A DNA stretch of 64,000 nt from Pedobacter sp. Leaf194 (lineage in GTDB: Bacteria; Bacteroidota; Bacteroidia; Sphingobacteriales; Sphingobacteriaceae). This document shows, in pieces, positions 15,043-30,507 of this stretch. Both the position numbers and the translations under genes were made by a program. The first letter of the stretch is position 1, and each line of letters begins with the position of its first letter. Where the stretch lies: the NCBI RefSeq assembly GCF_001423945.1, contig NZ_LMPU01000001.1, forward strand, positions 580,373-644,372, written 5' to 3'. The notes under the pieces were generated by a model. It did not search any database, had not been told where the DNA came from, and saw nothing but the letters and a program-made list of their open reading frames with translations.

Positions 15043-15891
15043 TTATGGTGCAGCGGCAGGTGCAACAGCCGTTGTTGCGTTTAACATTGGCCAAAAGCCT
15101 GGCGCCGGGCCAACGCTCGAACCCTTATTATCTCCTCGCTTTGTATCCTGTCCGAAATAATATAGTGGCCATCCTTTATAGGTCATCTGCTTTTTTCCAA
15201 AAACATCAATTGTAGAAATCATATCCTTAGTGATAATTGAAGGCAGGCTTTTCAATTCGGCTTCATATACAGGCCAGATGGTATTGTTACTTAAATCGGC
15301 TTTAGTAAATGTATTTTTATTGTTTTTATCAGGAGAAAAAGAATAAAGTGCTCTTCCCGATGCATCAGTAAAGTATCTTGTTAATCCACTACCTTCGGCA
15401 TAGGTGCTGGTATAAAGTTTTCCGTTTAAACCAATCATTTGTGCATTTGCCAGCATCAAAGAATAGTCTGGTTTGGCAACAAACCATATCCCACCCACAC
15501 CATCGCCTTTCACATCGCCCGTGGCTACATCATTTTGATAATAATAAAGCGGGTAGCCTTTGTAGGTGTTTTGCTTGCGCCCGTCGGCTCTGGCAATTTC
15601 GCCAACATCTGCCGCGTTAAGTTTCAGGTCGGTACTGGCATCTGCGGCATAATATGGTGGCCAAACGGTTTCGCAACCACCCGTACAAGTTGGCAAGCCG
15701 GCAACATCACTGGAAAACATATAAAGGGTTTTGCCGGCGTTATCGGTAAGTATTGTGCCAAACTTTGCATCTGTAGTCAGCTGAATACCCTTCTTTGCGA
15801 CTGGATTATCTGTACTTTTTTTACAAGATGAAGCAATTACCAGGGTAATGCATAACACCGCAAGTAGTGATTTTTTTAAGTAGATTAGCAT
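15043..15891 (-). CDS. Lipoprotein with secreted-repeat (COG4315/PF03640-like) domains
   Basis: A 282-residue lipoprotein. The signal ends in IASSCKK, a lipobox with Cys near residue 23. Two copies of a domain follow (about 38-150 and 155-265), each with LYMFS/LYSFS-type strands, a TCTGGCETVWPPYYA or TIWPVYEAE segment and a YKGYPLYYY / YKGWPLYYF repeat. This matches the secreted repeat of unknown function found in predicted lipoproteins. A Cys pair is present only in the first copy. Some relatives sit near electron-transfer genes, but no function is established. It is divergent from the ECF sigma gene at 16064. Confidence 0.8.
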   Translation of the reverse strand: MLIYLKKSLLAVLCITLVIASSCKKSTDNPVAKKGIQLTTDAKFGTILTDNAGKTLYMFSSDVAGLPTCTGGCETVWPPYYAADASTDLKLNAADVGEIARADGRKQNTYKGYPLYYYQNDVATGDVKGDGVGGIWFVAKPDYSLMLANAQMIGLNGKLYTSTYAEGSGLTRYFTDASGRALYSFSPDKNNKNTFTKADLSNNTIWPVYEAELKSLPSIITKDMISTIDVFGKKQMTYKGWPLYYFGQDTKRGDNKGSSVGPAPGFWPMLNATTAVAPAAAP

Positions 15892-15940
15892 AACGATTTT
15901 GTTTAATGTGTAAGATAATCCTGTTACGCTTGCGGAAGCT

Positions 15941-16033
15941 AAAAGGTTGCCTGGTTGATTAATTAATTAAACCGGAGGCCAACTTTTTAGAAAATGAGAA
16001 AAATATTTATTTCAGGCAACCTTTTATTTTTTT
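15941..16033 (+). promoter_or_regulatory. Long-range hairpin with T-run before the ECF sigma gene
   Basis: AAAAGGTTGCCTG (15941-15953) and CAGGCAACCTTTT (16013-16025) are a perfect 13-bp inverted repeat with a 59-nt loop, followed by ATTTTTTT. The loop holds TTAATTAATTAA (15959-15970). It lies 30 nt upstream of the GTG start at 16064 and could form a terminator in the leader or separate the divergent promoters. Confidence 0.45.
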
Positions 16034-16063
16034 ATCCGTATGATGATTTAGAAAGGAGAATTA

Positions 16064-16687
16064 GTGATCCCTAATCGCAACAATGAAAATGCTTTAGAAA
16101 GTACCATTAACGGCTGCATTAGATATGAACGCGAAGCGCAGCAGGCGCTTTACAAACATTTCTATGGCTTTGCCATGGGCATTTGTTTGCGTTATGCAAA
16201 TAATCGGCTTGATGCTGCCGGGATACTAAATGAAGGGTTTTTTAAGGTTTTCAGGAATATCGCGAAATACGAAAAGGATAAGTCTTTTAAGGCTTGGCTA
16301 GGCCGGATCATCACCAATACTGCAATTGATTATTACCGGTCGAATTTAAAATTTGCAGACCATGACGACATTTCTGATCATGATGAAGTTTCGCAGCAAC
16401 AATCTGTTTATTCGAAGTTAGCCTATGAAGATTTACTGGCTCTTGTACAAAAATTAACGCCAGCATACAGAACGGTTTTTAACCTTTTTGCTATAGACGG
16501 TTACTCGCACGAGGAAATTTCAGAGATACTTTCTATTTCTGTCGGAACATCAAAATCTAATCTGTTTAAGGCAAGGCAAAAACTACAGGAAATGCTTGCG
16601 CCGCCTCAAACAAATGGTTATGAGCGCAAAATGGTGGCTTTTGACAGAAATAATGTGCGGGTGAATTTTAACACAAACACGAAATGA
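16064..16687 (+). CDS. ECF RNA polymerase sigma factor
   Basis: A 207-residue sigma-70 family protein. Region 2 (about residues 25-95) includes DAAGILNEGFFKVFRNI and FKAWLGRIITNTAIDYYR. Region 4 (about 125-180) includes YRTVFNLFAIDGYSHEEIS followed by a helix-turn-helix (LSISVGTSKSNLFKARQKL). The start is GTG at 16064: a strong AAAGGAG lies 5 nt upstream, and the earlier ATGs run into a stop. Its stop overlaps the next start as ATGA, so the downstream membrane protein is probably its anti-sigma partner. Terminal ~25 residues beyond region 4 are of unknown role. Confidence 0.92.
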   Translation: MIPNRNNENALESTINGCIRYEREAQQALYKHFYGFAMGICLRYANNRLDAAGILNEGFFKVFRNIAKYEKDKSFKAWLGRIITNTAIDYYRSNLKFADHDDISDHDEVSQQQSVYSKLAYEDLLALVQKLTPAYRTVFNLFAIDGYSHEEISEILSISVGTSKSNLFKARQKLQEMLAPPQTNGYERKMVAFDRNNVRVNFNTNTK

Positions 16688-17877
16688 AAAACGGGAACGA
16701 CATAGATAAATTTTTTAAAGAAGGATTAGAGGAGCCCGAAATTCCTTTTAATGATGCGCACTGGCAGGCGATGGAGGAGCGGCTGCATCCAAAACCAAAG
16801 CGTAGAATTGCCCCGGTAATCTGGTTTACAGCATTTAGCGGTATCGCCGCCGCTTTGGTGATCGTATTTTTTTTAATGGAACCTAAAAAAGAACGCTTAA
16901 ACACGAACGCCGTGGTTAAAACAAAAGTAAAGGATGTAAATGCGGAGAAGAGCAACAGCAGGAATGGACTAGGGCTGCAAGATAAGTTGAGCAAGAAAGC
17001 GCCAGAGCGTATGGTTAGTAAAAATAAGCCTTTATTTGCTGATGGCAATCGAAATTTAGCGGTTTCAAAAGCAGTTGGCTTTAGCCAGCCGGTAACTTTA
17101 GCAAACACAGATTTTGAAGCGGGCATAATGAGTGGCAACCGGTTAGCGCATACGGTGGCTTTAAACAGTTCCGTTTTAGCTGAGGCGCCGACTAAGATTG
17201 TTTCGTTAGACGGCAGTAAAAGATTTCCTGCTGATTTTGGTAAGCCCAAAGATAAAGTGGTTTTTAAAAGCACGGGGAACAGGCAAAGGTTTGTTTTGAG
17301 CATCTTGGCGGCTCCCGATTTAACTTCTGTGCAATCATCAGGAAGAAGCAATTTGAGCGGAAGCATTGGCGCCGAACTTACTTTTTCGTTAACAAAAAGA
17401 TTGAGCATAACAACTGGTGCAGCTTATGCTAAAAAGATTTACGAGTCTGATTTCAGCTTGTATAATCCTAATTCTACTTACGTTTTTAGAACACAGCCCA
17501 CAAATGTGCGGGCAAATTGCGATGTGCTGGATATTCCCCTAAATCTTAATTTTAAAGTGTTTGAGGGTAAAAGAAATTCGATAGCTGTTAGTACAGGTTT
17601 ATCCAGTTACCTGATGCTTAAGGAAAAATACAGTTATACCTATAATTCAACTTATCCGGGTCCGGCAGATTACGAAGTTAGAAACCAAAACCAGCACTAT
17701 TTAGGAATTGCGAATTTGGGCGTAGCCATACAGCATAAAATAAACAACAAGTTCAGCATTAGTGCACGACCATTTATAAAAATTCCGTTAACTGATATTG
17801 GTTATGGAAACTCAAAGTTGTCATCAACAGGTGTTGCGGTTTCGGTAAATATGAATTTGTTCAAAAAAGCGAATTAG
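16684..17877 (+). CDS. Sigma-linked membrane protein with C-terminal beta-barrel
   Basis: A 397-residue protein whose ATG overlaps the sigma stop (ATGA), implying coupled translation. Residues 1-40 are cytoplasmic and acidic (IPFNDAHWQAMEERL, resembling anti-sigma N-termini). A single membrane helix (about 42-62, PVIWFTAFSGIAAALVIVFFL) follows, then a low-complexity polar linker to about 195. The C-terminal ~190 residues look like an outer-membrane beta-barrel (GAELTFSLTKRLSITTGAAY, DIPLNLNF, ending VSVNMNLF). Such ECF-adjacent proteins are frequent in Bacteroidota. The anti-sigma role is inferred from position. Confidence 0.7.
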   Translation: MKNGNDIDKFFKEGLEEPEIPFNDAHWQAMEERLHPKPKRRIAPVIWFTAFSGIAAALVIVFFLMEPKKERLNTNAVVKTKVKDVNAEKSNSRNGLGLQDKLSKKAPERMVSKNKPLFADGNRNLAVSKAVGFSQPVTLANTDFEAGIMSGNRLAHTVALNSSVLAEAPTKIVSLDGSKRFPADFGKPKDKVVFKSTGNRQRFVLSILAAPDLTSVQSSGRSNLSGSIGAELTFSLTKRLSITTGAAYAKKIYESDFSLYNPNSTYVFRTQPTNVRANCDVLDIPLNLNFKVFEGKRNSIAVSTGLSSYLMLKEKYSYTYNSTYPGPADYEVRNQNQHYLGIANLGVAIQHKINNKFSISARPFIKIPLTDIGYGNSKLSSTGVAVSVNMNLFKKAN

Positions 17878-20505: not shown

Positions 20506-21084
20506 ATGTTTCACTATAAACCATTAACAGACAACGAACTTTTCGAACTTACGCAGGCTGGAGATAAGTTTGCTTTCGAAGAAATATACGAGCGCTTTAA
20601 TGGTTTGCTGTACATTTATGCCTGCAAACTGGTTACTGATAAGGAAGACGCGAGAGATATTGTGCAGGAAATTTTTGTTTATTTGTGGAGCAATCCGGGT
20701 ATAAAAATCAAAGCTCAGTTATCTGCTTATTTATACACAGCGGTACGTTACAAGGTGTTCGACTGGCTCGATAAAAATAAGTCGAAATCAAACTATTTGC
20801 GCTCACTGGAAAACTTTGCAGAACGTGGCTATTGCATAACTGATCATTATATCCGGGAGAAAGAGTTCGCATCAATAATAGAGAAAGAGGTGAGTTTATT
20901 ACCACCCAAAATGCGGCAAATTTTCGAAATGAGCAGGCAGCAACATCTTTCGCAAAAACAAATTGCAGAAATTCTTCATCTGTCAGATAAGACTGTAAAA
21001 AAGCAAATGAGCAACGCCCTTAAGGTTCTTCGCTTAAAGCTTACCTCTTTTATCTCAATTGCCTTTATTTTGTTTATTCGATAA
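20506..21084 (+). CDS. ECF sigma factor of the polysaccharide utilisation locus
   Basis: A 192-residue sigma-70 protein of the Bacteroidetes expansion type. Region 2 has DKFAFEEIYERFNGLLYIYA and DIVQEIFVYLW; region 4 has LPPKMRQIFEMSRQQHLSQ and a helix-turn-helix ending in KTVKKQMSNALKVLR. A hydrophobic tail (FISIAFILFI) is common in this family. It is expected to be held by FecR, encoded downstream, and to drive the susCD operon when the SusC receptor binds its glycan. Unusually, about 790 nt with two tandem repeats separate it from fecR instead of a short gap. Confidence 0.93.
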   Translation: MFHYKPLTDNELFELTQAGDKFAFEEIYERFNGLLYIYACKLVTDKEDARDIVQEIFVYLWSNPGIKIKAQLSAYLYTAVRYKVFDWLDKNKSKSNYLRSLENFAERGYCITDHYIREKEFASIIEKEVSLLPPKMRQIFEMSRQQHLSQKQIAEILHLSDKTVKKQMSNALKVLRLKLTSFISIAFILFIR

Positions 21085-21155
21085 AAATTCTTTCGTTTTT
21101 TAAACACCGGGAAGCTTTCCTTTAAGTTTTTAATTTGGAATGCTTCAAAGGATTA

Positions 21156-21431
21156 TGGAAATGAAAGGCAGTGCTTTTGGCAGCCATCAGTCCTGCTATC
21201 GCTTATAGTCCTCGCTACGCTGCGGGCTATTCCGCTCTATCAGGTTTATAAACGAAGGGTTTTGCGCATTGCAAACCATTAAAATGGAACACCGTCTTTG
21301 CAAATTAGCCCCGGTTGCAGCGAACACGTAGCAACAGCCATTTCGGCTGTTTTTGCGGAGTAAGCGTAAAACGGGAACCAGCTTTGTTAATTGCAAAAGC
21401 CTTGCGCTCCAAAAAAAATAAGAAACAGCAG
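21156..21431. repeat. Tandem intergenic repeat, copy 1
   Basis: About 276 bp, nearly identical to copy 2 at 21482-21756 apart from a handful of substitutions and 1-nt indels. It contains GCTATCGCTTATAGTCCTCG and the GC-rich GCTGCGGGCTATTCCGC, and a hairpin AACAGCC-ATTTC-GGCTGTT (21333-21351) followed by TTT that resembles a terminator. A 66-codon minus-strand frame (21196-21396) is open but the indels between copies shift it, so it is not treated as a gene. Similar GC-rich blocks are, from memory, dispersed in related genomes. Confidence 0.85.
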
Positions 21432-21481
21432 CTTTTTTATTAAATTTTCAGATTCATTTAATTATCATTTTAAAGATGGTT

Positions 21482-21756
21482 TGGAAATGAAAGGCAGTGC
21501 TTTTGGCAGCCATCAGTCCTGCTATCGCTTATAGTCCTCGCTGCGCTGCGGGCTATTCCGCTCTATCAGGTTTATAAACGAAGGGTTTTGCGCATTGCAA
21601 ACCATTAAAATGGAACACCGTCTTTGCAAATTAGCCTCGGTTGCAGCGAACACGTAGCAACAGCCATTTCGGCTGTTTTGCGGAGTAAAGCGAAAAACGG
21701 GAACCAGCTTTGTTAAACGCAAAAGCCTTGCGCTCCAAAAAAATAAGAAGCAGCAG
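21482..21756. repeat. Tandem intergenic repeat, copy 2
   Basis: Second copy, same orientation, 50 nt after copy 1. Visible differences are A/G in CGCT(A/G)CGCTGC, C/T in AGCC(C/T)CGG, one T fewer after the hairpin, and TT/AC in GTTAA(TT/AC)GC. The hairpin is at 21659-21677. Together the copies fill most of the 789-nt gap between the sigma and fecR genes; the remaining DNA is AT-rich with no clear gene. Confidence 0.85.
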
Positions 21757-21873
21757 TTTAGCACCGACCAGTTAAGCTCGCTTTTTGCGGCAATTGAAAT
21801 TTATTTTTCAATGTTCTACTACCTGGGTGTTTGTTAACCTACTTGTATTTAATTAGCCAAATATATTATAGTG

Positions 21874-23046
21874 ATGAATAACCCAGAAGTTGAAAAACTT
21901 TTAGAAAAATACAGGGATGGACGTTGTACCGCGCAGGAAAAAGCTTTGGTAGAATCGTGGCACCTTGCAGCGCTTTCGGAAAAACAATCTGATTTAAAGC
22001 ACGAAGATATAATTGAAGCCAAAAACCAAATTTGGCAGGCTATTGAAGAACGAACTGAAATAAAACCAGCTTTAAAACGTGTGGCCTGGTTAAAAGTTGC
22101 CGCTGCGGCAGTGGTATTGTTTTTTATCGGTTTCATAATTAATAATCAATTTAAAAAACAGTTTGCCAGCCAAACTTTGGGCAGCAACAATACCGAAGCA
22201 ATAAAACCAGGGAGCAATAAAGCAACTTTAACGTTAGCTGACGGCTCCAAAATATCATTAACGGATGCCAACAACGGTGTTATTGCCAAGCAAGCCGGGA
22301 TAAACATTACCAAAACAAAAAATGGCGAGCTTGTCTATTCTATCGTTTCTACAAATTCGGCTAAAAAGGAAAACTTATTTAATACCATTGAAACGCCCCG
22401 CGGTGGCCAATATCAAATTAATTTGCCTGATGGTACAAAAGTTTGGCTCAACGCAGAATCATCTTTACGTTACCCGGCTGCATTTAACAGCGAAGAAAGA
22501 CGGGTTGAATTAACCGGAGAAGCTTATTTTGAAGTTGCAAAACTGAACGATAAAAAAGGCAGGCGTGTTCCTTTTAAGGTGAACAGCGAGGTTGGAGAAG
22601 GAAGAAAGCAGCAGGTGGAAGTTATTGGAACGCATTTTAACATTAACGCCTATAAAGACGAGCCGAATAATAAAACAACTTTGCTGGAAGGTAAAGTGCG
22701 TACTGTAAACCTTAGCTCATCCACATCGAACATTTTAAAACCTGGGCAGCAATCTGTAATTGCAGCATCCACGCCGGCGGTATTGGTGCGCAATGTAGAT
22801 GCAGAAGATGCAGTAACCTGGAAAGACGGCTTTTTTAGTTTTAACGATGAAAATTTACAAACAATTATGAATAAAATTTCCCGCTGGTATGATGTAGAAA
22901 TATCATATCGCGGTGCAAAAATGGATAAGCTTTTTGGCGGACGAATTTCGAGATTTAACAGTGTCAACGAAGTTTTAGAAACCCTGCAGACAACCGGCGA
23001 TGTTCATTTTAAAATTGAAGGAAGGAGGATTTTAGTTATGCCTTAA
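21874..23046 (+). CDS. FecR-family anti-sigma factor
   Basis: A 390-residue inner-membrane protein. The cytoplasmic N-terminus (about residues 1-70, MNNPEVEKLLEKYRDGRCT) binds the sigma factor. One membrane helix follows (about 73-92, LKVAAAAVVLFFIGFIINN). The periplasmic FecR domain has TPRGGQYQINLPDGTKVWLN and VELTGEAYFEVA, and a C-terminal DUF4974/STN-like region (about 310-390) includes INKISRWYDVEISYRG-type residues. ATG at 21874 is preferred over the GTG just before it. It relays the state of the SusC STN domain to the ECF factor at 20506. Confidence 0.93.
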   Translation: MNNPEVEKLLEKYRDGRCTAQEKALVESWHLAALSEKQSDLKHEDIIEAKNQIWQAIEERTEIKPALKRVAWLKVAAAAVVLFFIGFIINNQFKKQFASQTLGSNNTEAIKPGSNKATLTLADGSKISLTDANNGVIAKQAGINITKTKNGELVYSIVSTNSAKKENLFNTIETPRGGQYQINLPDGTKVWLNAESSLRYPAAFNSEERRVELTGEAYFEVAKLNDKKGRRVPFKVNSEVGEGRKQQVEVIGTHFNINAYKDEPNNKTTLLEGKVRTVNLSSSTSNILKPGQQSVIAASTPAVLVRNVDAEDAVTWKDGFFSFNDENLQTIMNKISRWYDVEISYRGAKMDKLFGGRISRFNSVNEVLETLQTTGDVHFKIEGRRILVMP

Positions 23047-23102
23047 CCTATACTTTCTATTATCGGTTACGACGATTATTTAGGCGGAAGTATAACTAAA
23101 AA

Positions 23103-23126
23103 CCGGAAGCGCGGCAACGCTCCCGG
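23103..23126. other. GC-rich hairpin between fecR and susC
   Basis: CCGGAAGCG / CGCTCCCGG with a 6-nt loop and one mismatch, in the 150-nt gap before susC. No T-run follows, so it is more likely an mRNA processing or stability element than a terminator. Confidence 0.4.
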
Positions 23127-23196
23127 CATAAATTAGGGCTTTTGTTTAATCGTAAAATTGTGAGATACAACTATTCTAAACCTAATAACCAAATAT

Positions 23197-26100
23197 ATGA
23201 ATTTTTATACTGAATGGCTGCCCAACCCTAAGGGCAGGCTATCTAAATTATTGTTGATTATGAAATTGACTTTTGTCTTATTAATCACTACGTTTCTTCA
23301 AATAAGTTACGCTGCGAAAGCTCAAAACGTAACACTTTCAGAAAAAAATACAAGCTTACTAAGTGTTTTCCGAAAACTGAATAAAAGCGTTGGCTACAGC
23401 TTTTTATACAATACCGAACTTTTAAAAGAAGCTAAACTGGTAACTATTGATATAAGAAATACGGATATAAAAGAAGCGCTGAGGCAAATTTTTAACGAGC
23501 AGCCACTCGGCTATACGATAAAAAACAACACCATTATTATACACAAAAAGGCAATAGATGGCTCGCCATTGTTGCTCCGTGCTTATGCAGATGTAAGAGG
23601 TAAAGTTGTAGACGAAACCGGTGCGCCGTTAATTGGTGCAAGTGTTAAAGTTAAGGGCTCTAACCAGGGAACAATTACAGATGTAAACGGTAGTTTTATA
23701 TTAAAAACGGTTGAAGAAAACGCAATTATTGTTGTTTCTTACATCGGGTATGAGAATAAAGAAGTTGCGGCAACATCAGGAAGGGATTTAAATATCCAAC
23801 TGGCGCCGCAAGCCGGCATACTTGCCGATGCTGTTGTTATTGGTTACGGTACGCAAAAGAAGAGCGTGGTTACGGGAGCAATTTCGCAGGTTAAAGGCAC
23901 CGATTTAGAGAATATGCCAGTTGTACGTGTAGAGCAATCGTTGCAAGGCCGTACTTCGGGTTTAACGATTACAACATCGTCTGGTCAGCCAGGTGAAGGC
24001 GCAACCCTGCGTATTCGTGGTACAACTTCAATTAATAACAGCGAGGCTTTGTATATTGTAGACGGTGTGCAGGTTGGTGGTGGTATCGACTACCTTAACC
24101 AGGCCGATATTGAATCTATCGAAGTTTTAAAAGACGCTGCATCTGGCGCAATTTACGGTGCCAGGGCTGCCAACGGTGTAATCATTATTACAACTAAAAA
24201 AGGTAGCAGGAACGGCAGAATGGCTGTTAACTACAATACTTATTTAGGAACACAAGCACCATCAAGAAAATTAGATTTGTTAAATGCTACGCAGTATGCT
24301 ACTATTTATAACGAGGCTGAGTATGCAAAGACACCAGGTTTAGCAACACCAAGATTTTCAAATCCTTCACAGTATGGTGTTGGAACAGATTGGCAGGCTG
24401 CTGTTTTTAATAATGATGCAAGGATTCAAAATCACGAGTTAAGCATTAGCGGTGGTGGTGAAAAATCTACCTATTACAGTTCTTTTGGTTATTTCGATCA
24501 GGAAGGTATTGTTGCAACAAGTAACTCTAAGTATAAACGATTTACAGCACGTTTTAACTCTGAACACCAGTTAACCAAGGCAATAAAATTTGGACAAACT
24601 ATCGGCTATACCCGCACAAACTCGGTAGGCGTTGGTACAAATACCGAATATGGTTCTCCGTTAAACAGGGCAATTAACATCGATCCTATTACGCCAATTG
24701 TAGAAACAGACCCCGCTAAATATGGTGCAGCGCCTTATATTGGCAATCCTGTAGTTAGAAACGAAGCCGGTTTTCCTTATGGAATTTCACAATATGCACA
24801 ATCGGAAATTTTAAATCCTGTTGCGGCTTTACAAGTTGCACAAGGCAACGGGTGGTCGGATAAAGTGGTTGCTAACGCTTTTGTTGAGGCCGAAATTATT
24901 AAAGGTTTAAAAGTAAGGTCGCAAGGCGGTGTAGATTTAGCCTTTTATGGCAGTGAAGGTTTTACGCCAATTTACTACCTAAACTCGATTAACCAAACAA
25001 CAATAACTTCATACAACAGGTCATCAAACCGCGGCCTTTTTTATTCGTTGGAGAATACAATTAGCTATAACAAGCAAATTGCTAAACACAATGTTACCGG
25101 TTTAATTGGTTACTCGTTCCAAAAAAACAGAGGTGAAACCCAGGGCGGAACAAAAGATGGCATTCCGGTAAATAACATTAAAGACGCTTCACTACAATTT
25201 CCGGTATCAAGGGCTAATGATGTTTTTTACGGTGGTGAATATTTAAACACTTTGAACTCGGCTTTCGCACGTTTAACTTACAACTATGATGAGAAATATC
25301 TTTTAACAGGTATTATCCGTAGAGATGGTTCTTCGCGTTTCGGACCGAATAATAAGTTTGGTTATTTCCCTTCGGCTTCGGTTGGTTGGGTGGCCAGTAG
25401 AGAAGACTTCTTTCCTAAAAACGATTACGTAACATTTGTAAAATTCAGAGGTTCTTACGGAGTTGTGGGTAATGATAATATTGGAGATTTCAGGTATTTA
25501 TCCACCGTTAGCGGTGGTAGGAACTTTACTTTAGGTACATCTGCCGGTTTAAATAATGGTGTAAGTCCTGACGCACTTTCAAACCCTGATTTGAAATGGG
25601 AGCAAACTTCATCAACCGATATCGGTGTTGACATGAGCCTCTTTGGCAATTTTACCTTAACAGCAGATTGGTACAAGAAAAAAACCACAGGTATGTTGCT
25701 TCAAATTGCCGTACCGGGTTATGTAGGTAATGCTGGTCCTATCGGCAACATCGCTGATTTATCCAACAGAGGTTTCGAACTGGAACTTGGTTACACAAAA
25801 AGAATTGGCGAATTTTCTTTAAAGGTTAATGCAAATGGGGCATTCGTTAAAAACAACATCGACTTTTTAGGTGATGATAAAGAATACTTAGGCGGCCAAA
25901 CAGTTACACCTCAGGCATTGGAAATTACACGTACCAAAGTTGGGAATGCAATTGGTTCGTTTTACGGCTATAAAAGCGATGGTTTATTCCAAAATCAATC
26001 GCAAATTAATAACTATAAAAGCCAGAGTGGTGCCCTTATTCAACCAAATGCAAAACCTGGTGATATTAAGTTTATCGACCTAAACGGTGATGGTCAGATC

Positions 26101-26616
26101 AATAACGATGACCGCCAGATTATTGGCGACCCAACACCTGATTTTACTTATGGAATGACATTTAACCTTGCTTACAAAGGTTTCGATTTAATCGTTCTTG
26201 GGCAGGGCGTAGCTGGTAATCAGATTTTTAATGCATTAAGAAGATTCGATTTACCAACTGCAAACTATACCACTGCAATCTTAAACAGGTGGACAGGTGA
26301 GGGAACGAGCAATACCATACCAAGGGTAACTTTGGATGATACGAACCAAAACTACAGTCGCGTTTCGAGTATTTTCCTTGAAAGTGGTTCTTATTTCCGA
26401 ATCAAAACTTTGCAGGTAGGTTATTCGCTGCCTAAAAAGTTGGTTGCTAAGGCTGGTTTAGATAAAGTAAGATTTTATGTAATGGCGAATAACCTGGTAA
26501 CATTTACAAAATACACAGGTTACGATCCGGAAATTGGTGGTGGAAGTTATGGTGTTGACCGCGGTTTCTATCCGCAGGCAAGAACCTTCTTTGCCGGTTT
26601 AAATGTTGGTTTTTAA
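23197..26616 (+). CDS. SusC/RagA-type TonB-linked outer-membrane receptor with STN domain
   Basis: A 1139-residue outer-membrane protein. A signal segment (about residues 22-42) ends in SYAAKAQ. Residues ~48-115 form a secretin/TonB N-terminal (STN) domain that talks to FecR. A CarboxypepD-like domain follows (about 127-205, VRGKVVDETGAPLIGASV), then the plug (VVIGYGTQKKSVVTGAIS, LYIVDGVQVGGG) and a 22-strand barrel. It imports oligosaccharides in a TonB-dependent way with the SusD lipoprotein, whose gene begins 12 nt later. The STN domain marks it as a signal transducer that switches on its own locus. Confidence 0.96.
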   Translation: MNFYTEWLPNPKGRLSKLLLIMKLTFVLLITTFLQISYAAKAQNVTLSEKNTSLLSVFRKLNKSVGYSFLYNTELLKEAKLVTIDIRNTDIKEALRQIFNEQPLGYTIKNNTIIIHKKAIDGSPLLLRAYADVRGKVVDETGAPLIGASVKVKGSNQGTITDVNGSFILKTVEENAIIVVSYIGYENKEVAATSGRDLNIQLAPQAGILADAVVIGYGTQKKSVVTGAISQVKGTDLENMPVVRVEQSLQGRTSGLTITTSSGQPGEGATLRIRGTTSINNSEALYIVDGVQVGGGIDYLNQADIESIEVLKDAASGAIYGARAANGVIIITTKKGSRNGRMAVNYNTYLGTQAPSRKLDLLNATQYATIYNEAEYAKTPGLATPRFSNPSQYGVGTDWQAAVFNNDARIQNHELSISGGGEKSTYYSSFGYFDQEGIVATSNSKYKRFTARFNSEHQLTKAIKFGQTIGYTRTNSVGVGTNTEYGSPLNRAINIDPITPIVETDPAKYGAAPYIGNPVVRNEAGFPYGISQYAQSEILNPVAALQVAQGNGWSDKVVANAFVEAEIIKGLKVRSQGGVDLAFYGSEGFTPIYYLNSINQTTITSYNRSSNRGLFYSLENTISYNKQIAKHNVTGLIGYSFQKNRGETQGGTKDGIPVNNIKDASLQFPVSRANDVFYGGEYLNTLNSAFARLTYNYDEKYLLTGIIRRDGSSRFGPNNKFGYFPSASVGWVASREDFFPKNDYVTFVKFRGSYGVVGNDNIGDFRYLSTVSGGRNFTLGTSAGLNNGVSPDALSNPDLKWEQTSSTDIGVDMSLFGNFTLTADWYKKKTTGMLLQIAVPGYVGNAGPIGNIADLSNRGFELELGYTKRIGEFSLKVNANGAFVKNNIDFLGDDKEYLGGQTVTPQALEITRTKVGNAIGSFYGYKSDGLFQNQSQINNYKSQSGALIQPNAKPGDIKFIDLNGDGQINNDDRQIIGDPTPDFTYGMTFNLAYKGFDLIVLGQGVAGNQIFNALRRFDLPTANYTTAILNRWTGEGTSNTIPRVTLDDTNQNYSRVSSIFLESGSYFRIKTLQVGYSLPKKLVAKAGLDKVRFYVMANNLVTFTKYTGYDPEIGGGSYGVDRGFYPQARTFFAGLNVGF

Positions 26617-26628
26617 TTATTGGAAAAG

Positions 26629-28137
26629 ATGAACAATAAAAATATTAAAAGCCTGATGGCAATAGTTGCTGTTATGGTTGTTTTTGTTTCGTGTAAGAAG
26701 GATTATTTGGAGCTAACGCCACGCGGCACAGCTCTTGAAGATAACTTTTATAAAAATGAAACTGAGGTTATGCAGGGCGTAATTGCTGTGTATGATGTTA
26801 CGCAGTGGGGTACAACAGGTGGCTACACCATGAAAATGCCTTTGTTAAGTGCCGCATCTGACGATTGCTTTGCAGGCGGAAGTAATGCTTCCGACCAGCC
26901 GAACTGGGTTGCGTATGATAATTTTAACATGAACTCGAGTGTTGGTCCGCAGGTTGGTTTATGGAATAAAAACTACAGTGGTATAAACCGGGCAAATGTT
27001 ATTTTGAGCAAAATTGAGAAGGCTACAACACTAAGTGCCGCTTTTAAAACCCGTGTTACTGCAGAAACGAAGTTTTTGAGGGCTTATTTTTATTTTGATT
27101 TGGTAAGATGGTTTGGTAATGTTCCTTTAATTACCAAAGTTTTAGAAACCAGCGAACTTTATACGCAGGTTCAATCTACACCGGCTCAAATTTACGCTCA
27201 AATTGAGAAAGATTTAAGGGATGCAATTCCAGGATTGCCAGCCACCATTTCGGCGGGCGAGAAGGGAAGAATTTCTCAGGGTGCGGCAAAAGCGCAGTTG
27301 GGTAAGGTTTTATTGTATCAAAATGACAATGCGAAAATGACTGAAGCCGCTACTTTATTTGAAGACGTAAACCGCGTCGGAAATCCGTATGGCTACTCGT
27401 TACTGCCGAACTATGCTGATATCTTTAATCCGGCTAATAAGTTTAATGCAGAGGCAATTCTGGAAATTCCACACTCAAATAATGCAGCCTGGTCTGATTG
27501 GGGTTACATAAATGGTGGTGAAGGGAATGTGGGTACCCAATTTGTGGGTATGGATAGCTATAACGGCGACACATATTCGAGCGGATGGGGCTTTTGTCCG
27601 GTAACACTTGATTTGGTTGGCGTAATGAAAAATGACCCTCGCTTTGCGGCAACGATTATCGACGGTGCTGCATTAAAAGCAGCCGGTGCAACCTACAACG
27701 GCCGTTATCAGAATACAGATTATTTCATCAAAAAATATGCACCATTAAAAGCGTTCCGTTCGGCAAGCGGTGTTGCAGAGCAAAACTGGCCGATTGATGA
27801 AATTGAGATTCGTTTGGCAGATACTTATTTAATGCAGGCCGAGGCCTTATTAAGAAGTGGCGGTAGCGCAAGCCGTGCAAAAGAGTTGCTGGATGCAGTA
27901 AGAGCACGAGTAGGATTAGCATCAATTCCGGCTACGCTTGATAATGTTTATGCAGAACGCAGATTAGAATTAGCTACTGAAGGTCACCGGTTCTTCGATT
28001 TAGTTAGAACAGGTAAAGCCGTAGCAGTGCTAGGTTCGCAAGGCTTTAAGGCTGGTAAAAGCGAGTACCTTCCAATTCCACTAAACGAAATTGAAGTAAC
28101 TAAAGGTGGTATTAAACAAAATCCAGGTTATAATTAA
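26629..28137 (+). CDS. SusD/RagB-type nutrient-binding lipoprotein
   Basis: A 502-residue surface lipoprotein. The ATG at 26629 (MNNKNIKS) is preferred to the upstream TTG at 26620. The lipobox is VVFVSCKK (Cys near residue 22). The body has tetratricopeptide-like helices and SusD hallmarks: TPRGTALEDNFYKNE near the start, AETKFLRAYFYFDLVRWFG in the middle, and RRLELATEGHRFFDLVRTG near the end. It forms the lid of the SusC barrel and captures glycan. It follows susC in the same operon. Confidence 0.96.
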   Translation: MNNKNIKSLMAIVAVMVVFVSCKKDYLELTPRGTALEDNFYKNETEVMQGVIAVYDVTQWGTTGGYTMKMPLLSAASDDCFAGGSNASDQPNWVAYDNFNMNSSVGPQVGLWNKNYSGINRANVILSKIEKATTLSAAFKTRVTAETKFLRAYFYFDLVRWFGNVPLITKVLETSELYTQVQSTPAQIYAQIEKDLRDAIPGLPATISAGEKGRISQGAAKAQLGKVLLYQNDNAKMTEAATLFEDVNRVGNPYGYSLLPNYADIFNPANKFNAEAILEIPHSNNAAWSDWGYINGGEGNVGTQFVGMDSYNGDTYSSGWGFCPVTLDLVGVMKNDPRFAATIIDGAALKAAGATYNGRYQNTDYFIKKYAPLKAFRSASGVAEQNWPIDEIEIRLADTYLMQAEALLRSGGSASRAKELLDAVRARVGLASIPATLDNVYAERRLELATEGHRFFDLVRTGKAVAVLGSQGFKAGKSEYLPIPLNEIEVTKGGIKQNPGYN

Positions 28138-28149
28138 TCAGCATTTGAC

Positions 28150-29571
28150 ATGAAATTATTTAAAGATAAAATACAAGCAACAATCCTGCTTAGTCTGGGT
28201 TTAGTGCTTAGCATTATGGTTTCCTGCAAAAAGAGCGAAACCACCAAAGACATTGGTATTCCGCCAACCGCGGCAGAGATTCAGTTCACTTCTACGCCAA
28301 CGGCTACCAACCCGAATATTGTTAGTTTCAAAAGTGCATACAATGGAATCAACGCACATTGGGATTTCGGAAACGGCGCAAGCGCTGACGGAAATGATGT
28401 TCAGTCATCGTACCCAATTGCGGGTACCTACACTGTAAAGTTAACTGTTTTGGCAGATGGTGGTTCGGTTTCAACAACCAAAACCATTACCATTGCAACA
28501 ACCAATACAAGCATGTTAAGCGATCCTGCTTATACGCTGCTCTCTGGTGGCTTATCGAATGCGGCCGGTAAAACCTGGGTTATAGACCAAACGCAACCTG
28601 GCCACCTGGGCGTTGGTCCGATAACTTCGCAAACGCCCGATTGGTACCAGGCTGGGCCAAATGAGAAAGCCGGATTAGGTTTTTACGATGACGAAATGAC
28701 TTTTGCCATGGGCGCATCTTCGTTAAAATACACTTACGCTAATAATGGAACCACTTTTGCCAACGCATCAAATGCGCCGGGCATTGGCGGCCCAACAGGA
28801 AGTAACGACCCGACGGTTAATTATACGGTCCCGACAAATTTAACATGGATTTTAAATGATGTAAATGGTGTGAAATACATCAATTTAAGTAACAACGGAT
28901 TCATTTCATATTATCTTGGCGTTTCTTCTTATCAGATTTTATCGCTTACCGCGGATGAAATGTGGTTAAGGTGTGGAGATAAATCTAATGCAGGAAATGC
29001 CTGGTATCTGAAGTTAATTAGAAAAGGCTACGTGAGGCCAATCGTGCCACCGGTACAAAAACCAATACAGGCGGCCAATCTATCAGATGATTTCCAGGCG
29101 GCAACAGGCATGGCCTGGCTGGCCGAAAACATGGATTTCAACAGAAGTTATGATAACCCTGCAAGATTCCCTGTAAATACTTCATCAAAAGTAGCTTACT
29201 ACGAGAAAAGAACAGGTAACGATGGCCAGTATGGAAACATTAATATTACCATGCCTTACCGTTTCGATTTAACCGCGAAAAATAAGATTAGGTTAAAGGT
29301 ATTCATCCCGGGAGGAAATGATTTTACTAAAGTTGCGCCAACTGTTTCTGTTAAGTTGCAGAACTCATTATTGGGGGCAAATGCTTACACTACGCAAATT
29401 GAAATTGTTAAAACTATAGCGGCAGCGCAATATAATACGTGGGTGCAGTTAGAATTTGATTATTCAGCCTCTGCCAGCCAAACATTATACGATAAAATTG
29501 TTGTACAGTTAGGCGGCGAAGGGCATCCAAACCCAGGTATATTCTATATTGACGATTTTGAATTTAAATAG
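28150..29571 (+). CDS. PKD-domain surface lipoprotein, probable glycan-binding protein
   Basis: A 473-residue lipoprotein with lipobox MVSCKK (Cys near residue 26). Residues ~45-118 form a PKD beta-sandwich (INAHWDFGNGASADG, GTYTVKLTV). The centre (about 125-290) is of unknown fold. The C-terminal ~165 residues, ending in IFYIDDFEF, resemble a carbohydrate-binding beta-sandwich. Position directly after susD, with 12 nt between the genes, and before GH16 suggests a surface glycan-binding protein (SusE/F or SGBP-B role). Binding specificity is inferred from the neighbouring enzyme only. Confidence 0.75.
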   Translation: MKLFKDKIQATILLSLGLVLSIMVSCKKSETTKDIGIPPTAAEIQFTSTPTATNPNIVSFKSAYNGINAHWDFGNGASADGNDVQSSYPIAGTYTVKLTVLADGGSVSTTKTITIATTNTSMLSDPAYTLLSGGLSNAAGKTWVIDQTQPGHLGVGPITSQTPDWYQAGPNEKAGLGFYDDEMTFAMGASSLKYTYANNGTTFANASNAPGIGGPTGSNDPTVNYTVPTNLTWILNDVNGVKYINLSNNGFISYYLGVSSYQILSLTADEMWLRCGDKSNAGNAWYLKLIRKGYVRPIVPPVQKPIQAANLSDDFQAATGMAWLAENMDFNRSYDNPARFPVNTSSKVAYYEKRTGNDGQYGNINITMPYRFDLTAKNKIRLKVFIPGGNDFTKVAPTVSVKLQNSLLGANAYTTQIEIVKTIAAAQYNTWVQLEFDYSASASQTLYDKIVVQLGGEGHPNPGIFYIDDFEFK

Positions 29572-29625
29572 TGCTAAACACCAGCAGTTTGCCATACCTG
29601 CAAACTGCTGTTTAAATTTTTAAAA

Positions 29626-30507
29626 ATGAGGGATTCAGTGAAGTACTTAAAGAAAGAAATTGTTTCAGCTTTTGCGATTGTAGTGGTTGGAATAAGCGGA
29701 TGTTCTAAAGGGACAGATGCTGGCGGGCCAGTTTATGTGCCGCCAGTTGTGGTTACACCCGTAGATAAAAGCTGGAGTTTTGAAACCACTCCTGCCTGGG
29801 CAGACGAATTTACAAATAGTGGCGCACCATTGTCAACTAACTGGGATTACGATACTGGTGGAGGCGGCTGGGGTAATAACGAACTTGAGTATTATACCGG
29901 CACAACAAATAATGCGAGCGTAGCTAACGGACTCTTAACCATCACCGCAAAAAAGGAAAGCATGGGTGGTATGCGTTATACATCATCACGTATGGTTACC
30001 AGAGGTAAGTTGGATGCGCTATATGGTCGCTTTGAAATTAAAGCTAAACTACCACTTGGTAAAGGAACCTGGCCGGCGATCTGGATGCTGCCAACAGAAC
30101 GAGCTTACGGCGACTGGCCAAAGTCTGGTGAGATCGACATTATGGAGCACGTAGGTTACGACCAGGATAATGTTCACTTCAGTACACACACCGAAGCCTA
30201 TTATTTTAAAATTAATACTCAGAAAACCATCACTAGAAAAATCGATGGGGCGAGTTCAGCTTTTCACCTCTACCGGGTTGATTGGACGCCTTACGCAGTG
30301 CGGGGCTACTATGACGATGTTAAGGTTTTCGAATTTGCAAATGAAGGAACAGGTTATAAAGCCTGGCCATTTGATAAAAAATTTCACCTGTTGTTAAATG
30401 TTGCTGTTGGTGGCGATTGGGGTGGCGCTCAAGGTGTAGATGATTCCATCTGGCCACAAGCAATGGAAGTTGATTACGTTCGATATTATAAAATGATCGA
30501 TAAATAG
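29626..30507 (+). CDS. GH16 beta-glucanase (laminarinase-like) lipoprotein
   Basis: A 293-residue enzyme. A signal and lipobox GISGCSK place Cys near residue 27. The catalytic motif GEIDIMEHVG (ExDxxE pattern; nucleophile and acid/base Glu) is central, preceded by the aromatic WPAIWMLP. NNELEYYT and LLLNVAVGGDWGG near the end are typical of bacterial beta-1,3- and beta-1,3-1,4-glucanases. It probably cuts laminarin or mixed-linkage glucan at the cell surface before SusCD import. It is the last gene of the PUL and is followed by a terminator. No GH3, GH17 or GH30 enzyme is present nearby. Confidence 0.92.
   Translation: MRDSVKYLKKEIVSAFAIVVVGISGCSKGTDAGGPVYVPPVVVTPVDKSWSFETTPAWADEFTNSGAPLSTNWDYDTGGGGWGNNELEYYTGTTNNASVANGLLTITAKKESMGGMRYTSSRMVTRGKLDALYGRFEIKAKLPLGKGTWPAIWMLPTERAYGDWPKSGEIDIMEHVGYDQDNVHFSTHTEAYYFKINTQKTITRKIDGASSAFHLYRVDWTPYAVRGYYDDVKVFEFANEGTGYKAWPFDKKFHLLLNVAVGGDWGGAQGVDDSIWPQAMEVDYVRYYKMIDK

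Follow-up and report, generated by a model that had tools for sequence, protein, structure and literature searches.

The sequence analysed here (the window) is a 64,000-nucleotide stretch of the Pedobacter sp. Leaf194 genome, in which a gene for an ECF sigma factor is followed, with overlap, by a gene for a 397-aa protein, raising the question of whether one polypeptide could connect the outer membrane directly to a sigma factor in the cytoplasm. The initial annotation had proposed such a chain, acting without an STN/FecR relay, and this is the best reading of the present results, as the barrel is formed in the model and FecR and STN domains are absent. The proposal is not new, because it is already the published model for Dma proteins: the gene pair most probably is a Dma-type sigma/anti-sigma module, a design already in the literature, to which the present analysis adds a further lineage, a predicted promoter and target, and a comparison of fused (cis) and split (trans) forms.

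Table 1. Features of the sigma/Dma-like locus, with window coordinates, strand, and basis or remarks
ECF sigma factor gene	16064..16687	+	207 aa, GTG start; Pfam Sigma70_r2 and Sigma70_r4_2
Dma-like anti-sigma factor gene	16684..17877	+	397 aa; start within the sigma stop (ATGA)
Residues 1-42, predicted cytoplasmic sigma-binding domain	16684..16809	+	Two model helices; N-domain profile finds Dma2 orthologues
Residues 43-64, inner-membrane helix	16810..16875	+	AlphaFold2 model; hydropathy
Residues 65-202, disordered periplasmic tether	16876..17289	+	pLDDT mostly <60; length and conservation
Residues 203-391, predicted eight-stranded outer-membrane barrel	17290..17856	+	AlphaFold2 model, fold matches, hydropathy alternation
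Predicted promoter of the sigma-dma operon, GGCAACC-N15-CGT	16015..16039	+	24 bases before the GTG of the sigma gene
Same motif, GGCAACC-N16-CGT, facing the divergent lipoprotein gene	15926..15951	-	
Divergent lipoprotein gene, predicted target	15043..15891	-	PF03640 repeats, E 2.8e-36

The coordinates and the ATGA overlap first assigned to the two reading frames proved correct (Table 1), and the arrangement is widely shared. Matches to the protein were found at E<=0.001 in 83 of 121 family genomes (the window's own counted), some of them covering just the N-domain or just the barrel, and at E<=1e-5 in 103 of 395 genomes of the phylum. The nearest named relatives belong to Pedobacter, with P. 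rhodius at 67 percent identity. Eighty named loci, carrying Sphingobacteriaceae-type or Bacteroidetes names, were taken for comparison, and one of them (L104) yielded no ORF. Because the sigma gene lay immediately 5' of the ORF in all of the remaining 79, an origin by chance or in a single genome is excluded; together with the same 4-base overlap in 51 of these loci, this also rules out unrelated ORFs that are merely co-linear.

The four parts read in the initial annotation, namely a cytoplasmic N-terminus, an inner-membrane helix, a linker, and a C-terminal barrel, were all present, with a linker of 138 residues compared with the roughly 130 first noted. An AlphaFold2 model based on an alignment (A3) of 58 rows, comprising the window and 57 of the 80 named loci, reached a mean pLDDT of 74.5 and a pTM of 0.54 overall; a separate alignment (A1) held the window and 29 family relatives. 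The N-terminus, which on inspection is not signal-peptide-like, was modelled as two helices (residues 6-16 and 24-34), followed by a membrane helix with a mean hydropathy of 2.25 that is preceded by basic residues. Of the 79 loci, 78 had a hydropathy peak of at least 1.6 within the first 110 residues, in most cases close to residue 45. Regarding known anti-sigma classes, the zf-HC2 type found no Pfam match in the protein, and residues 1-66 contain no cysteine. The tether, modelled as disordered, varied from 116 to 197 residues over the 58 rows, with a mean commonest-residue frequency of 0.23 compared with 0.59 in the barrel, indicating that this segment is fast-evolving.

For the C-terminal part, both the model and fold matches agree on a barrel. 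Strands filled residues 203-391 with pLDDT mostly >90, and residues ~200-393 matched eight-stranded outer membrane proteins (OMPs) of solved structure, including OmpA, NspA, OprF, OmpW, PagL, and OmpX (Foldseek, VIA-align), with VIA Z scores of 14-17 and rmsd values of about 2-4 against OmpA, NspA, OprF, OmpW, and PagL. The inside/outside alternation of strand hydropathy was 1.999, compared with 1.085 in within-strand shuffles (p 0.0024). At the sequence level, the protein matched Pfam OMP_b-brl_2 at 22.4 bits, under the cut-off of 27, and had no NCBIfam match; the best rows showed an identity of only about 5-15 percent to OmpA/NspA/OmpW-type barrels. The fold is common to these proteins, whereas the present barrel, unlike theirs, is tethered to an inner-membrane helix. 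A search of solved-structure sequences with the family profile returned two designed TIM barrels over 24 positions, which were judged spurious.

Signalling from an outer-membrane event to an ECF sigma factor is also achieved by FecI-FecR-TonB transducer systems, which consist of three proteins with STN and FecR domains. The window contains one such system at a distance of about 3 kb (20506-26616), and the 397-aa protein could in principle belong to it; the probability of this is negligible, given that the Pfam scan of the protein (E<=1) returned the sub-threshold OMP_b-brl_2 match only, with no FecR or STN domain, that the sigma factor scored 77.8 bits against TIGR02985 (Bacteroides sigma family), under the cut-off of 126.4, and that the chain has a barrel of its own. 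A FecR/STN relay for the pair was likewise rejected, such domains being absent from both proteins in Pfam, and the FecR gene at 21871-23046 is part of a different module. That canonical system occupies window positions 20506-30507, with an ECF sigma factor and FecR recognized by Pfam, and continues, by eye, with a TonB transducer with an STN-like start, a SusD-like protein, and a GH16-like glucanase.

The Dma family, as defined in PMC13088901 (Pardue 2026), has these four parts in the same order and is encoded beside an ECF21 sigma gene, and the neighbourhood of dma2 is given there as DUF4943, DUF4858, and nitronate monooxygenase genes. PF16301 (DUF4943) matched 7 of 295 genomes of the class, and two loci from these matches (L176 and L177) were checked for Dma genes. 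In both, a Dma-like protein of 351-356 aa was encoded together with a sigma factor and DUF4943, and the order in L176 was sigma - Dma - DUF4943 - DUF4858 - nitronate monooxygenase, the last two being Pfam-confirmed; the two Dma-like proteins, recovered by synteny, are accordingly read here as Dma2 orthologues. A profile of residues 1-66 of the Sphingobacteriaceae family found both, at E values of 3.3e-6 and 1.3e-5, compared with 7.6 for the best of 400 shuffled copies. On the strength of this homology, and of the pairing of the two genes at all 79 loci, the N-terminus is predicted to bind the sigma factor. Since a barrel-only profile barely matched the orthologues (E 0.072 and 2.8), the kinship of the barrels rests on hhalign, which gave a probability of 97 over 84 columns at the barrel start against a two-sequence profile. 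The sigma profile found the Dma2-linked sigmas at about 1e-44, a search in which any ECF sigma would score.

Compared with the Dma proteins of Bacteroides, the four-part order, the neighbouring ECF sigma gene, and a homologous N-domain are common to both, and the barrels are linked in part. The differences concern lineage, Dma being known from gut Bacteroides and the present module from Pedobacter and other Sphingobacteriaceae, and neighbours, with a divergent PF03640 lipoprotein gene here and DUF4943/DUF4858 at dma2. Loss of Dma1 or Dma2 alters vesiculation. The present module extends the Dma design from gut Bacteroides to soil/water Sphingobacteriaceae; a literature search found no account of Dma in this family or of the split form described below, papers outside the library searched not being excluded, and a paper on TamL mentions Dma solely in its reference list. 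A further counterpart, likened by description, is the Phocaeicola vulgatus M0N98_03760/03761 pair, induced by the toxin BcpT (Evans 2022, PMC9308784), in which the anti-sigma factor 3' of an ECF sigma gene is called unusual and is likewise predicted to span the periplasm and end in a C-terminal barrel. Its regulon has been linked to longer O-antigen and NigD genes (PMC9308784). A role of the Pedobacter module as an envelope-stress sensor would be consistent with the published result on the Phocaeicola pair.

It is highly probable that the locus encodes a module of the Dma type. The ECF sigma factor would be held in the cytoplasm by the first ~42 residues, with helix 43-64 passing through the inner membrane, the disordered tether of ~138 residues bridging the periplasm, and the eight-stranded barrel placed in the outer membrane. 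If that membrane or the assembly of the barrel were disturbed, the chain would pass into another state, with proteolysis of its membrane-proximal part as the probable last step, and the freed sigma factor would transcribe its own operon and the divergent PF03640 gene from GGCAACC-N15/16-CGT promoters. Some FecR-type regulators are required for full sigma activity, and the 397-aa protein might by analogy be a positive co-factor and not an inhibitor. This is very improbable, as the effects of Dma2 deletion need the sigma gene das2 and involve changes in genes within and beside the dma2 operon, according to PMC13088901, and as transposon insertions in the Phocaeicola anti-sigma gene are described as turning the regulon on (PMC9308784).

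The Leaf194 genome also carries relatives of the module in fused and split forms. A second, divergent fused Dma-like module is located at C8:478712-480034 (L133 2213-3535), with its own sigma gene just 5'. In a split module (L032 1423-3661, equivalent to C1:1226222-1228460), a barrel-less 249-aa anti-sigma factor is followed by a separate OMP gene with a signal peptide (C1:1226766), and a further barrel-less anti-sigma factor of 176 aa is present on contig C14. The split trio of sigma factor, barrel-less anti-sigma factor, and OMP was found in 11 of 11 family loci examined (L032-L042), where conservation of the anti-sigma factor was 0.72 in the last ~54 residues, 0.71 in the N-domain, and 0.38 in the tether. 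Seventeen further barrel-less loci from the phylum sample (L213-L229), chosen because the ORF looked too short for a barrel and hence not a random sample, had a homologous OMP gene directly 3' in 14 cases; of the remaining three, L226 had a signal-peptide gene lacking a match, and L227 and L228 had none. By eye, the anti-sigma C-terminus in L227 (1801-2766) and L228 (1953-2915) resembles the end of a TonB-receptor plug domain, and Pfam gave no match for the L228 protein. The N-terminal sigma-binding module also matched very long ORFs of 750-1100 aa (e.g., G445:C23, G136:C8, and G441:C1), in which it is perhaps fused to other periplasmic parts.

These forms bear on whether the chain stays intact. 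The tether could hold a cleavage site because it is long, unstructured, and fast-evolving, and it might be cut after export, leaving an ordinary one-membrane anti-sigma factor and a barrel with a separate job; the split relatives, whose barrel and anti-sigma factor are separate genes with the OMP gene next in line in all 11 family loci and in the 14 of 17 others, would agree with such a division. Nevertheless, fused and split forms alike keep a barrel with the anti-sigma factor, and Dma proteins are described in PMC13088901 as spanning the outer membrane to the cytosol, making a cut tether improbable relative to a continuous chain. Our tentative view, held with somewhat less than even confidence, is that one N-terminal sigma-binding module is wired to a barrel in two ways across Bacteroidota, either in cis through a fused tether (Dma and the present protein) or in trans, where the barrel is the next gene and would be touched by the short tail of the anti-sigma factor. 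As part of the same view, the cis form of Sphingobacteriaceae would watch a redox or lipoprotein state of the outer membrane or periplasm and drive only one or two promoters; the neighbours across relatives are PF03640 lipoprotein, YceI, DUF5777 barrel, Rieske, and cytochrome-c-like genes. Together, the fused and split forms permit testing of whether a covalent outer-membrane link matters for signalling.

As to the predicted output of the module, 56 of 79 loci had the sequence GGCAACC-N14-18-CGT within 250 bases 5' of the sigma gene, against a resampled mean of 0.02 (first-order Markov), and 16 of 79 had it on the opposite strand of those regions; the spacer was 16 bases in 55 of the 57 motif cases printed. 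The strict motif was absent from the 250 upstream bases in 23 of 79 loci, many of which, among those printed, show one-base variants (e.g., AGCAACC). In the 4.57-Mb genome, GGCAACCTTTN11-14CGT had two sites, both in the intergenic region between the sigma and lipoprotein genes (Table 1). The bare count is unremarkable, because a backward control gave one match, and it is the shared location that counts. A third, looser match (C10:338113) was set aside, having no convincing gene start. When 40 genomes of the genus were searched with a similar pattern, 27 sites were found, spread over 21 genomes, whereas the control matched 5 times; 20 of the sites face a sigma gene of the type seen here, 3 the lipoprotein gene, and 4 other genes (two for alginate-lyase-domain proteins, one for a CHRD-domain protein, and one for a cytochrome-c-like lipoprotein). 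The ECF-type CGT promoter box described in Flavobacterium (PMC9723704) is compatible with the motif and not specific to it.

From these sites, the sigma factor is predicted to drive its own operon and the divergent PF03640 gene, whose product, a predicted secreted lipoprotein, had no match among solved structures. A PF03640 gene stood divergently beside the sigma gene in 54 of 80 loci and did not in the other 26, and a cytochrome-like lipoprotein gene took this place in 6 loci; downstream neighbours elsewhere included YceI (8), DUF5777 (7), and Rieske (4) genes, the Pfam names being taken from one or two representatives per cluster and the cytochrome matches lying below the Pfam cut-off. We infer from this a small regulon of periplasmic redox or lipoprotein flavour. 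The locus thus offers a compact test system, with one predicted motif, two strict genomic sites, and one predicted target besides its own operon. In L187 and L193, sigma genes that seem related but distinct in type have the same promoter motif, which hints at crosstalk between modules.
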